Assembly (NCBI RefSeq): GCF_014652535.1
Contig: NZ_BMYZ01000002.1
Coordinates: forward strand, 310,001-374,000
Origin: Cellvibrio zantedeschiae
GTDB taxonomy: Bacteria > Pseudomonadota > Gammaproteobacteria > Pseudomonadales > Cellvibrionaceae
DNA: 64,000 nucleotides
Direction: 5' to 3'
A program made the position numbers and the translations under genes. This document shows, one piece after another, positions 33,857 to 51,075 of this stretch (positions are counted from its first letter, which is position 1; each line of letters begins with the position of its first letter). The notes beneath the pieces are model-generated. The model saw nothing but the letters and a program-made list of their open reading frames with translations, did not search any database and had not been told where the DNA came from.

Positions 33857-36580
33857 ATGAAAAATCTTTTTTGGATACTTGCGCTATCTCTTCTCAATAT
33901 TTTTGCCGTAGCAGCTGAGGCAAGCGCGGTTAGAAATTCTGGCGCTCATTGGGTGAGTCAAAATAGTCTGGTTTTCTTCAAGCAACCGACGGCTGTGCGA
34001 TTTGAGCTGGAACTGGGTCTTGCGGATAAATCTAAAAAGCCAATCCGTTTAAATCCGAACGGCACATTTAAAGGTGACCAATTTCCGCATCTCAAAGACT
34101 TATCTGTAGCAACTATTAATCTATCTGCAGATGTTATGAAAGATCTGCTTAAAAACGAGTTAGTGTTAAATCAGTACAGCGACCAGGGTCTATTGTTGGC
34201 GGCCTCTGAAGTTCAAACAGCGGGCATCATCGACGAGCTCTATACCGCAGGTACAAATGATGCTGATGAGATTACTGATTTTGGCGCAAGTGTTTTAGCC
34301 GATGCAGTGCAATTTAAAGTTTGGGCACCCACTGCAAAAAAAGTGAAGGTTTTATTATTCGACGCAAATAAAAAGCCGCTTACGCCTGCTGTGCTTGCGA
34401 TGCAAGAAGATCGCTCCACTGGAACCTGGGTCGCTAAAGGCGGTAAAGACTTGGCGTTTGCTTATTACCAATTTGAAGTGACCGTTTATCACCCTGCGAG
34501 CAAAAAAATGGAAGTGTTGGTGGTAAGTGATCCTTATTCACATAGTTTGTCTGCCGATGGTTTTTATTCGCAAGTAATCGATTTAAACGATGCCAAAACC
34601 CAACCTGAAGCTTGGTCGAGCCAAGCGCGTCCGCGTGTGGATGCACCTGAAGATAATATTTTGTACGAAGTCCACATCCGCGATTTTAGCGCAAGTGATA
34701 AGAGTATTAAGAATCCAGATGTTCGCGGAAAGTATGCGGCTTTTTTGGAAAAAGATAGCGATGGAATAAAGCATTTAACCGAGCTGCGTGCCGCGGGTTT
34801 AAATGTAATCCATTTAATGCCGGCCTTTGATTTCGGCACAGTAAATTCAGATCCGGAAAAAACGATTTCATTGGATGATAAGTTGGAAAAAGTTTGCCGC
34901 ATAAATCCAAAAAATCCTGCTTGTACAAAAAATTTTAATCCTGAACAAAGATTGCGAGATTTATTAACGGGTTTGAATCCACGTACTGGTGATGCCCAAG
35001 CCATTATCGAATCCCTGCGTACGCAAGATAATTACAATTGGGGTTACGATCCATTTCATTACACTGTTCCGCAATCGTCTTACGCAATTAACCCAGAGGG
35101 TGCTGCGCGTGTTGTTGAGTTTCGCGCGATGGTAAGGCAGCTGCATGATATGGGTTTTAAAGTCATTATGGATGTGGTGTACAACCACACCTATGCTGCT
35201 GGCCTGCATGAGAAATCTGTGCTCGATAAAATTGTGCCCAATTATTACCATCGTTTAAATCCCGTCACCGGTGCTATTGAGCAATCGACTTGTTGTGACA
35301 ATACTGCAACAGAACATGTGATGATGGCAAAGCTAATGACGGATTCTTTAGCGGTGTGGGCACGTGATTATCGTATTGACGGTTTCCGTTTTGATTTAAT
35401 GGGGCATCAACCGAAAAATCTTATGTTAAAAGTGCGCGATGCCGTGCGTAAGATTGACCCTAATACTTATTTCTACGGTGAGGGCTGGAATTTTGGTGAG
35501 GTCGCCAATAACAAACGCTTTGTGCAATCCACGCAAATGGAATTGGGCGGAACTGAAATTGGAACCTATACCGATAGACTGCGCGACGCTGTGCGCGGTG
35601 GTTCAAGTATGGATAGCGGAAAAAATTTGCGCGTTAACCAAGGCATCGGCAATGGTTTGTTTGTCGTTCCCAATGACATGCAAGCTGCAGATAACAACAA
35701 AACCAAATATTTAAATTACATTGACCAAATTCAAGTTGGCCTTGCGGGTAACCTGGCGCAATTTCCGTTAAAGGATACGAGCGGTAAAGAGGTAGTGGGT
35801 AGCGGTGTGGATTACAACGGCAGTCCCGCCGGTTACGCAAAAGATCCCGCTGATACGATTAATTACGTATCCAAACACGATAATCAAACCCTGTGGGACA
35901 ACAACCAATACCGCATAGCTTACAGTGTTTCGAGTGCTGATCGTGTGCGTATGCAAGCGCTGTCGTTAGCTTATCCGTTGCTAGCACAAGGTATTCCTTT
36001 CTTACACATGGGTTGTGAATTTTTGCGTTCGAAATCTTTCTTGCGCGATAGTTACGATTACGGTGATTGGTTTAATGCGGTAGATTTTTCCAAACAATCC
36101 AATAATTACGATGTCGGCTTGCCACCAGAAGTAAAAGATAAAGATAACTGGCCGATTATTTCCGATGTTTTGCAAAAATCGGAAGGCCGAGATCATGTAA
36201 CTTCTGCGCATATATCCCTAAGCAATGCCATGTTTTTGGATTTTATTAAAATCCGTAGCAGTTCACCGTTGTTTAGATTGCGCACGGCGGATGAGATTAT
36301 CAAACGCGTGAGTTTCCCTAATGCGGGAGCAAATCATCAAGCAGGTTTGGTGGTGATGAAAATTGATAATAGTGATTTGGTGATTGATCCTAACATAAAA
36401 GAAATTATGGTGGTCTTTAATAACGGCACGACCCCGCAAACTTTTGCTTATGCTGGTGCTAAGCAATTTAAGTTGCATCCTGTGCAGGCTAAAGGTGCGG
36501 ATGTATTAGTAAAAACCAGTCGCGCTAATTCAAAAGGGTTCGTCGTTCCTAAATTTACGGTGGCGGTATTTGTAAAGTAG
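33857..36580 (+). CDS. Pullulanase-type alpha-1,6-glucosidase (GH13)
   Basis: A 907-residue debranching enzyme with a signal peptide (about 1-20, ending VAAEA). N-terminal pullulanase domains occupy about 25-260, including the CBM48-like VQFKVWAPTAKKVKVLLFD. The GH13 barrel follows with YEVHIRDFSA, VYNHT, nucleophile Asp513 (GFRFDLMGH), acid/base Glu542 (YGEGWNFGE) and Asp675 (SKHDNQT). It hydrolyses alpha-1,6 links of pullulan or branched malto-oligosaccharides. It is divergent from the galactan receptor, which does not match its substrate, so the adjacency may be accidental. No terminator was seen directly after it; a structured repeat region follows. Confidence 0.94.
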   Translation: MKNLFWILALSLLNIFAVAAEASAVRNSGAHWVSQNSLVFFKQPTAVRFELELGLADKSKKPIRLNPNGTFKGDQFPHLKDLSVATINLSADVMKDLLKNELVLNQYSDQGLLLAASEVQTAGIIDELYTAGTNDADEITDFGASVLADAVQFKVWAPTAKKVKVLLFDANKKPLTPAVLAMQEDRSTGTWVAKGGKDLAFAYYQFEVTVYHPASKKMEVLVVSDPYSHSLSADGFYSQVIDLNDAKTQPEAWSSQARPRVDAPEDNILYEVHIRDFSASDKSIKNPDVRGKYAAFLEKDSDGIKHLTELRAAGLNVIHLMPAFDFGTVNSDPEKTISLDDKLEKVCRINPKNPACTKNFNPEQRLRDLLTGLNPRTGDAQAIIESLRTQDNYNWGYDPFHYTVPQSSYAINPEGAARVVEFRAMVRQLHDMGFKVIMDVVYNHTYAAGLHEKSVLDKIVPNYYHRLNPVTGAIEQSTCCDNTATEHVMMAKLMTDSLAVWARDYRIDGFRFDLMGHQPKNLMLKVRDAVRKIDPNTYFYGEGWNFGEVANNKRFVQSTQMELGGTEIGTYTDRLRDAVRGGSSMDSGKNLRVNQGIGNGLFVVPNDMQAADNNKTKYLNYIDQIQVGLAGNLAQFPLKDTSGKEVVGSGVDYNGSPAGYAKDPADTINYVSKHDNQTLWDNNQYRIAYSVSSADRVRMQALSLAYPLLAQGIPFLHMGCEFLRSKSFLRDSYDYGDWFNAVDFSKQSNNYDVGLPPEVKDKDNWPIISDVLQKSEGRDHVTSAHISLSNAMFLDFIKIRSSSPLFRLRTADEIIKRVSFPNAGANHQAGLVVMKIDNSDLVIDPNIKEIMVVFNNGTTPQTFAYAGAKQFKLHPVQAKGADVLVKTSRANSKGFVVPKFTVAVFVK

Positions 36581-36642
36581 TTTGTTAGTGTTTTAACTCT
36601 AACTGCAGTTGGTTCTTCACACTTTATTTCGCCTGCTGGCGA

Positions 36643-36721
36643 GTTACTTTTCTTTCGGCAATTGCTCCTGCATTGCTCTAACTCCTGCATCCATGCAGTC
36701 GTGCTTCGCTGAAAAAGTAAC
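36643..36721. repeat. Structured repeat, candidate third unit
   Basis: Outer stem GTTACTTTT (36643-36651) with AAAAGTAAC (36713-36721) encloses two hairpins: 36658-36676 with loop TCCT (one bulged base) and CTGCAT-CC-ATGCAG at 36685-36698. This has the same plan as the two better units at 36835-36917 and 50893-50975. Confidence 0.6.
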
Positions 36722-36723
36722 CA

Positions 36724-36745
36724 CAAAATTGCAGGAGCAATTTTG
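36724..36745. repeat. Isolated hairpin with AGGA loop
   Basis: CAAAATTGC-AGGA-GCAATTTTG, a perfect nine-base-pair stem, same loop type as the neighbouring units. Confidence 0.7.
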
Positions 36746-36767
36746 CACAGCGAAGCTGCCCGCAGGG

Positions 36768-36789
36768 TGAATGCCAAGGATGGCATTCA
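36768..36789. repeat. Isolated hairpin with AGGA loop
   Basis: TGAATGCCA-AGGA-TGGCATTCA, a perfect nine-base-pair stem, between the first and second closed units. Confidence 0.7.
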
Positions 36790-36834
36790 TGAAAAGAAAG
36801 TCGACCCGGTTCGTCCCTGTTTCCTGCGCGCTTC

Positions 36835-36917
36835 AGAAAATAGCCGTCGTTCCGACGCGACATCCATGTCGCGTAGTCACTCAAACGCACTTCCTGTGCG
36901 CTTGCCAGCTATTTTCT
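36835..36917. repeat. Structured dispersed repeat, copy 1
   Basis: Outer stem AGAAAATAGC (36835-36844) with GCTATTTTCT (36908-36917). Inside lie hairpin A, ACGCGACAT-CC-ATGTCGCGT (36855-36874), and hairpin B, CGCAC-TTCCT-GTGCG (36886-36900). Similarity to the reverse complement of copy 2 extends outside, to about 36811 (CCTGCGCG-type flank) and 36928 (CAGTGCTCG). Confidence 0.85.
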
Positions 36918-37048
36918 TCCAGTGCTCGGGGGGCTCGCATGGGATAAGAGCAAAAGCACGGCAACAGCGGCGAGCGATGATAATTTCTTGATCCTCAACC
37001 AAAAATAAGTAAAGTTATGACCTCGACTTTCTGACTGGTCATATCACC

Positions 37049-50821: not shown

Positions 50822-50892
50822 AAAAAACTCTTGAAATAAAAATTTAAGTTGTGGCACCGAAAGGTTCCCTTGTGGCTTCGCCGAGCATTGGA

Positions 50893-50975
50893 AGAAATTT
50901 GGTGTAAAACAAACAGGATGTTTGTTTTAGTGACTACGCGACAAGGATGTCGCGTCGGAACGACAGCAAATTTCT
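50893..50975. repeat. Structured dispersed repeat, copy 2 (between hslV and hslU)
   Basis: Outer stem AGAAATTTG (50893-50901) with CAAATTTCT (50967-50975). Inside are hairpin B, TAAAACAAACA-GGA-TGTTTGTTTTA (50905-50929, 11 perfect pairs), and hairpin A, ACGCGACA-AGGA-TGTCGCGT (50936-50955). It is the reverse-complement relative of copy 1 at 36835. Flanks also match: CCGAGCATTGGA on the left and GAAACGCGCAGGA on the right. Confidence 0.85.
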
Positions 50976-51022
50976 GAAACGCGCAGGAGAAACGAAGCCG
51001 CAGGGTGCACTTTCTTTTGCTT

Positions 51023-51050
51023 ACTTTTCTTTATGCAAGTAAAGAAAAGT
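51023..51050. repeat. Long perfect hairpin in the hslV-hslU spacer
   Basis: ACTTTTCTTTA (51023-51033) pairs with TAAAGAAAAGT (51040-51050), loop TGCAAG. Located 25 bases downstream of the hslV stop on the minus strand; no T run follows, so it is not a classic terminator. The ACTTTTCTTT arm recurs at 36646-36655 beside the other repeat block. Confidence 0.7.
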
Positions 51051-51075
51051 GAGGCCCGCGGCAGGCGAATCTGAA

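Follow-up and report, generated by a model that had tools for sequence, protein, structure and literature searches.

Inverted repeat units in a Cellvibrio zantedeschiae contig belong to the TwoAYGGAY family, which looks like a dispersed, modular double-hairpin repeat with loops fitting the CsrA rule

Two 83-nt units lie in inverted orientation at 36835-36917 and 50893-50975 of the 64,000-nt stretch of Cellvibrio zantedeschiae DNA analysed here (the window), raising the question of what kind of element keeps its pairing while its sequence changes and how it came to stand at both places. Direct reading found both units at these coordinates and with the sequences given in a preliminary description. 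They belong to the arms (36792-36944 and 50866-51018) of an inverted pair of 153 nt with 76% complementarity; the one other inverted pair of at least 25 nt listed for the window is shorter. On either strand, each unit folded better than 200 of 200 dinucleotide shuffles (z -5.7 to -6.6). The window holds 39 hairpins with an arm of at least 7 and a loop of 3-6; GGA or TCC stands in or beside the loop of seven of them, and five of these seven are within the two elements. The preliminary description had also claimed that the outer stem and hairpin B diverge yet pair in both copies, that hairpin A is nearly unchanged, and that the hairpin loops carry TCC/GGA, all of which was confirmed for both window units.

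The unit was correctly located in that description, but its size of 83 nt was too small, the real extent reaching from about 50852 to 51069 for copy 2 and from about 36628 to 36944 for copy 1. Copy 2 (50852-51069, plus strand, extent inferred) is flanked by two genes with Pfam Proteasome and AAA domains, predicted to be HslV-like and HslU-like, and is antisense to both. Its core of outer stem and both GGA hairpins (50873-50985, plus strand; 129.6 bits with the model R1 described below) contains a pentaloop hairpin AGGAT at 50905-50929 (from the fold; arm 11 with a 3-nt loop GGA in the hairpin scan) and a hexaloop hairpin AAGGAT at 50936-50955 (arm 8), and is followed by a tail hairpin TTACTTTTCTTT ... 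AAAGAAAAGTGA at 51023-51050 (arm 11), all on the plus strand. In a by-eye comparison, copies from the distant genus g162 also ended in a tail hairpin resembling that of copy 2.

Copy 1 (36628-36944) has its GGA strand on the minus strand and stands between a pullulanase-type gene and a ThuA-domain gene, its extent being inferred from by-eye comparison with other copies and with the corresponding spacer of genome G012. In its core (36825-36937, minus strand; R1 129.4 bits), the outer stem encloses two hairpins, one with the pentaloop AGGAX and one with the hexaloop ANGGAT, the latter being hairpin A (36855-36874, minus strand, hexaloop ATGGAT). Two inserted modules, alpha and beta, were observed in the tail. 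Module alpha, at approximately 36657-36702 on the minus strand, is a CTGCATGGATGCAG type hairpin recognised by eye against other copies, while module beta, at approximately 36721-36793 on the plus strand and thus opposite to copy 1 (pattern match G000:C2:346743), carries its two GGA hairpins at 36724-36745 and 36768-36789. A 112-aa minus-strand ORF (window 36448-36786) overlaps this tail; the Pfam search of the two repeat-overlapping ORFs gave no match, and this ORF is probably not a gene.

The architecture, for which the preliminary description knew no name, has been named already as TwoAYGGAY (Rfam RF01731, clan CL00106). At the Rfam cut-off of 43 bits, copy 2 passes with 49.6 bits (50857-51015) and copy 1 fails with 38.6 bits (36848-36904). 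TwoAYGGAY has been listed as a probable RNA from the human gut, gammaproteobacteria and Clostridiales in a passage of PMC2864571 that is silent on dispersed copies. The family and the element here share two adjacent (A)NGGA-loop hairpins within an outer stem; the element differs in having a pentaloop in one of the two hairpins and a tail hairpin after the core. Compared with the AYGGAY loop of the name, the element has one ANGGAT hexaloop (N being any base) and one pentaloop a base shorter, with GGA kept in both. A search of other Rfam families at six loci with GGA modules returned only TwoAYGGAY, an adjacent tmRNA gene and sub-threshold matches.

In the own genome (G000, 4.27 Mb), the RF01731 search gave 29 matches at E<5e-4, the next one having E=9.4, and 12 of the 29 reached the Rfam cut-off. 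The covariance model R1, built from these 29 copies, found 33 copies in the own genome, 15 in G013, 12 and one weak copy in G016, 11 in G012 and one in G014, and none in 16 of the 21 genomes of the genus. Five copies were observed inside 4 kb at G000:C1:1852416-1856384 (L116). Outside the genus, RF01731 matched at E<=0.001 in 24 of 369 genomes of a class survey (own genome included), 16 of them above the cut-off, and six genomes besides the own one held at least 7 matches. In g162, RF01731 was present in 8 of 9 genomes with 5-18 matches each (94 in total). The exact core pattern was found in only three assemblies of an 84,980-species collection in which records near the own genome are possibly absent, namely the Cellvibrionaceae MAG P9_D7_14 and the gammaproteobacterial MAGs PMG_258 and PMG_192. 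Carriage by plasmids or phages was not supported, the search giving a single 46-base tail match in plasmids and none in phages.

Pairing was kept across these copies while the sequence changed. In the 29 own-genome copies, 98.2% of 984 cells were paired and 20 of 34 pairs had changed on both sides; the covariation score was 0.368 against a shuffle mean of 0.156 (sd 0.009), a value reached by 0 of 500 shuffles and by none of the slid versions of the alignment (highest 0.108). In the larger alignment A2, fitted to R1 and comprising 74 loci and 101 rows (64 distinct), 25 of 34 pairs were doubly changed across the distinct rows. Covariation is strong in both sets, and a one-off duplication with chance pairing, for which no favourable evidence was found, is refuted by the 33 own-genome copies together with the shuffle result and retains next to no probability.

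The compensatory changes proposed in the preliminary description were upheld for the outer stem, which varies pair by pair with single-pair compensation, whereas those of hairpin B are largely a swap among a few whole arm blocks. The hairpin-1 arms consist mainly of the blocks AAAACAAAC, AAAACGCAC and AAAACGGAC and their relatives with almost no intermediates, and they combine freely with hairpin-2 blocks, which favours block exchange. Such exchange among copies can mimic selection. On the GGA strand, G-U cells outnumbered A-C cells by 41:12 overall (31:5 in the outer stem, 10:7 in the hairpins) in an alignment fitted to R1, which leans the same way, and the GGA strand is thus more likely the folding one.

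Sites shared with relatives, found by masking the elements and then matching the flanks, gave at least 7 own copies and at least 9 comparisons. Same-lineage counterparts in at least one relative were found for L004, both copies of the L007 pair, L008, L018, L019 (for which another own copy is slightly nearer to the relative's counterpart) and L020. In nine shared-site comparisons, 20 stem pairs differed, of which 8 were double Watson-Crick changes, 8 single changes giving G-U, 1 A-C and 3 other. After insertion, pairing would be maintained by selection for the folded form, by sequence exchange among the copies, or by both.

Some of these sites also differ in the orientation of the element. At the L008 site in G016 and G013, the flanks align one way and the 214-221-nt element block the opposite way; since the G016 and G013 copies are much closer to L008 (3 and 10 differences) than to any other own copy (13 and 19 for the next best), this insertion was turned round in one lineage. 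The tail-to-tail L007 pair gave a better alignment inside out in G016 (L108), with 483 nt at 85.7% opposite to the flanks and the order of the pair swapped. In-place inversion of the element block between close relatives is thus seen in L008:1482-1702 against L034 and L166, and in L007 against L108. The copies at L087, at L112 and at the L004 site of G012 stand in the opposite orientation to the own copy, which is not their nearest copy. Three spacers contain an unlike, oppositely oriented copy in a relative (L020 and L024 in G016, L004 in G012), and we read these as separate insertions.

The preliminary description had suggested a dispersed, folded REP/MITE-like family, and this part of the proposal was borne out, with relatives lacking the element or carrying something else at the corresponding places; the link to RAYT genes, discussed below, was not. 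HslV was found in 18 of the 21 genomes of the genus. Compared with a full element in the own genome, the hslV-hslU gap measures 20 bp in G018 and 39 bp in G005 (both counted from the true stop). Short decayed pieces of the same element are present in G012 and G013 (partly by eye), a different double-GGA hairpin representing a further subfamily in G008 and G015 (L128, L125), and yet another palindrome in G016, G007, G011 and G020 (partly by eye); the rows of G000, G016, G012, G013, G010, G020, G001 and G011 were read by eye. At least four palindromic repeat types occur across the genus in this one spacer (window 50858-51075; L117-L134) of an expected two-gene operon. The copy 1 spacer, 468 bp long here, has a counterpart of 83 bp in G012, upstream of a gene whose protein shows 83% identity. 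With regard to the features of a MITE, the spacers are too diverged for the ends to be fixed, no target-site duplication was established at the short spacers, and terminal inversion was seen by eye only, in head-to-head pairs.

Copies were often found in close inverted pairs. In g162, 28 of the 30 pairs less than 1 kb apart were inverted (27 head-to-head and 1 tail-to-tail, besides 2 in tandem), and 26 of the 27 head-to-head pairs were spaced 86-263 nt. The own genome has nine close pairs, six head-to-head, two tail-to-tail and one in tandem (8 of 9 inverted). By eye, two subtypes recur in the head-to-head pairs of g162, each followed by a tail hairpin like that of the own genome.

The modules alpha and beta, nested in some copies, are themselves pairs of GGA hairpins. 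Exact beta sites number nine. Six of them are no more than about 210 nt away from an R1 core, on its tail side in five cases and on its 5' side in one, and the other three stand alone. One of these three is a tandem of double GGA hairpins with a 67-bp unit repeated 2.2 times (L250:1404-1550), a candidate sponge RNA. A GGA-hairpin array was also observed directly downstream of the tmRNA gene at L243:1430-1550 (hairpins by eye and by fold).

Of the 64 distinct rows, 57 have AGGA in the pentaloop and 63 have A, C or T as the base after it, and the hexaloop is mostly A-N-GGA-T here and A-N-GGA-C in the distant genus. Across the nine shared-site comparisons, N had changed in five and the pentaloop X in six, as against 0 or 1 for each column of A and GGA; the hexaloop ended in an unchanged base in all nine, so that only part of the freedom of A(N)GGAX is visible. 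The N and X variants could travel between sites by exchange between copies. Paired A(N)GGAX loops on stems are thus present, and their pattern fits the rule known for RsmE/CsrA, as judged by motif. The element loops also resemble the repeat of CsrB, CAGGA(U/C/A)G, and the consensus obtained by SELEX. CsrB and RsmX-Y-Z are regulated sRNA genes, whereas the RNA of the elements here is putative. These sponge RNAs share with the element the (A)NGGA-loop hairpins, which bind CsrA/RsmE there, and for RsmE a hexaloop set straight on the stem binds best and a pentaloop lacking N less well, as described in a passage of PMC4005645. On motif grounds, CsrA binding was earlier proposed for TwoAYGGAY by Gardner et al., according to a passage of PMC4333381. 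A CsrA family match was found in 14 of 14 tested genomes, the only one of G014 having an internal stop. Counting against CsrA binding, 24 of the 62 pattern matches in g162 have ACGA as their pentaloop (13 of 43 once the arm must be 6 long), a change that would destroy a GGA site; GGA is lost in a third or more of the g162 pentaloops.

The orientation of 32 of the 33 R1 copies to the neighbouring genes was neutral, with 12 sense, 13 antisense, 7 between convergent genes and none between divergent genes, as taken from crude ORF calls, of which one overlaps the copy in 5 of 32 cases. This neutral orientation argues against a role in messenger RNA and gives no sign of selection for presence in mRNA, and the lack of copies between divergent genes is in keeping with insertion that avoids promoters. 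Neither window copy showed a sigma-70-like promoter.

Four accounts may be set against a mobile element with CsrA-binding loops, a one-off duplication having been dealt with above. In a classical REP/REPIN system, single-stranded hairpin DNA would be copied in trans by a RAYT (Y1 HUH transposase), and the loops would be constrained by the transposase and not by CsrA. Inverted doublets, extragenic palindromes and compensatory changes are traits of REPINs, as a passage of PMC3116915 describes them, and are shared by the element, for which REPINs are the closest parallel; Y1_Tnp matches were found in 17 of 21 genus genomes and in 13 of 15 element-bearing genomes. Nevertheless, the element was not found at the examined RAYT loci and the RAYT link is not supported: R1 gave no match in 20 RAYT neighbourhoods from the genus, just 5 of them in R1-bearing genomes, and RF01731 none in 18 RAYT loci taken together with flanks of about 1.5 kb, 15 of them in element-rich genomes (the two sets overlap by 4 loci and cover part of the RAYT genes found). 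The only Y1/RAYT-like match of the own genome (L066:5200-5860, G000:C4) adjoins a different palindrome (GTACGATTAGCG...CGTAC, by eye), and G383 (one contig) and G392 contain 10 and 9 element matches and no Y1_Tnp match. The element also differs from REP/REPIN by its much longer unit and its two fixed-GGA loops, and no constant GTAG (or CGTC) tag stands at the hairpin foot, the flanking bases varying by eye in alignment A1. This account is accordingly considered unlikely. Dispersed palindromes without a dedicated transposase are also described, in a passage of PMC3733652, for the CGTC-tagged REPs, which unlike the element consist of a short hairpin and a CGTC tag and occur mainly in alphaproteobacteria. 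No mobilising enzyme for the element was found in the RAYT loci, the five-copy cluster and the G289 region. A cargo or transposase gene between inverted copies was rejected as a candidate, the cluster and the G289 region sharing no enzyme by eye; both contain ordinary-looking ORFs, and G289 also a neighbouring IS3-like transposase. Mitochondrial double-hairpin elements are small mobile units of two hairpins, as here, but mitochondrial, and we know of no GGA loop rule in them.

It is equally doubtful that the element is a multi-copy regulatory RNA gene, a CsrA sponge of the CsrB/RsmZ kind that spread since extra copies were useful, with mobility being incidental. The match of the loops to the high-affinity RsmE consensus, the free-standing and tandem GGA-hairpin arrays (67-bp unit, 2.2 times, in L250), the presence of csrA and the excess of G-U over A-C on the GGA strand are all in line with it; the lack of a promoter-like site at the two window copies, the neutral orientation and the frequent loss of GGA in the distant genus speak against it. 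Mutation alone, in which template switching in hairpins and conversion between copies rebuild perfect arms with no selection on the fold, would explain why the hairpin-1 arms come in few freely combining blocks with almost no intermediates and why G-U pairs are very few in the hairpin arms. As a full account it has little probability, since single G-U changes equal double changes at the shared sites (8 and 8) and A-C is rare (1), the outer stem has a G-U:A-C ratio of 31:5, and in the loops N and X are exchanged whereas A and GGA are kept.

Building on the observed copy number, structure, covariation, variable spacer occupancy, inverted pairing and loop constraint, we favour, at a probability of roughly 0.7, a mobile double-hairpin element that is non-autonomous and whose RNA, where produced, would bind CsrA. 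Such a unit would be about 200 nt long, with an outer stem closing the AGGAX pentaloop and ANGGAX hexaloop hairpins and a tail hairpin after it. Its copies would settle between genes, often as inverted and mostly head-to-head pairs, would take other GGA-hairpin modules into their tails, and could be inverted in place. The spread may be due to a trans-acting enzyme that works on the folded strand, for which a RAYT is not supported, and any transcript of the GGA strand should be able to bind CsrA through its two loops. What is new here is that TwoAYGGAY looks like a dispersed, mobile and modular repeat; no description of its mobility was found in the open-licence PMC papers searched.

A bolder and rather improbable extension is that TwoAYGGAY elements are transposable CsrA decoys, that is, mobile double hairpins with sites for a CsrA dimer, in which each jump or flip would alter the titration of this global RNA-binding regulator and from which CsrB-like sponges would be born by tandem growth and module nesting.

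For the family, an unexplained RNA-family entry becomes an apparent mobile element with a testable molecular grip. This poses the question of which agent spreads and inverts such long repeats of several hairpins when a genome yields no RAYT match, and it offers a possible origin for CsrA sponge RNAs.
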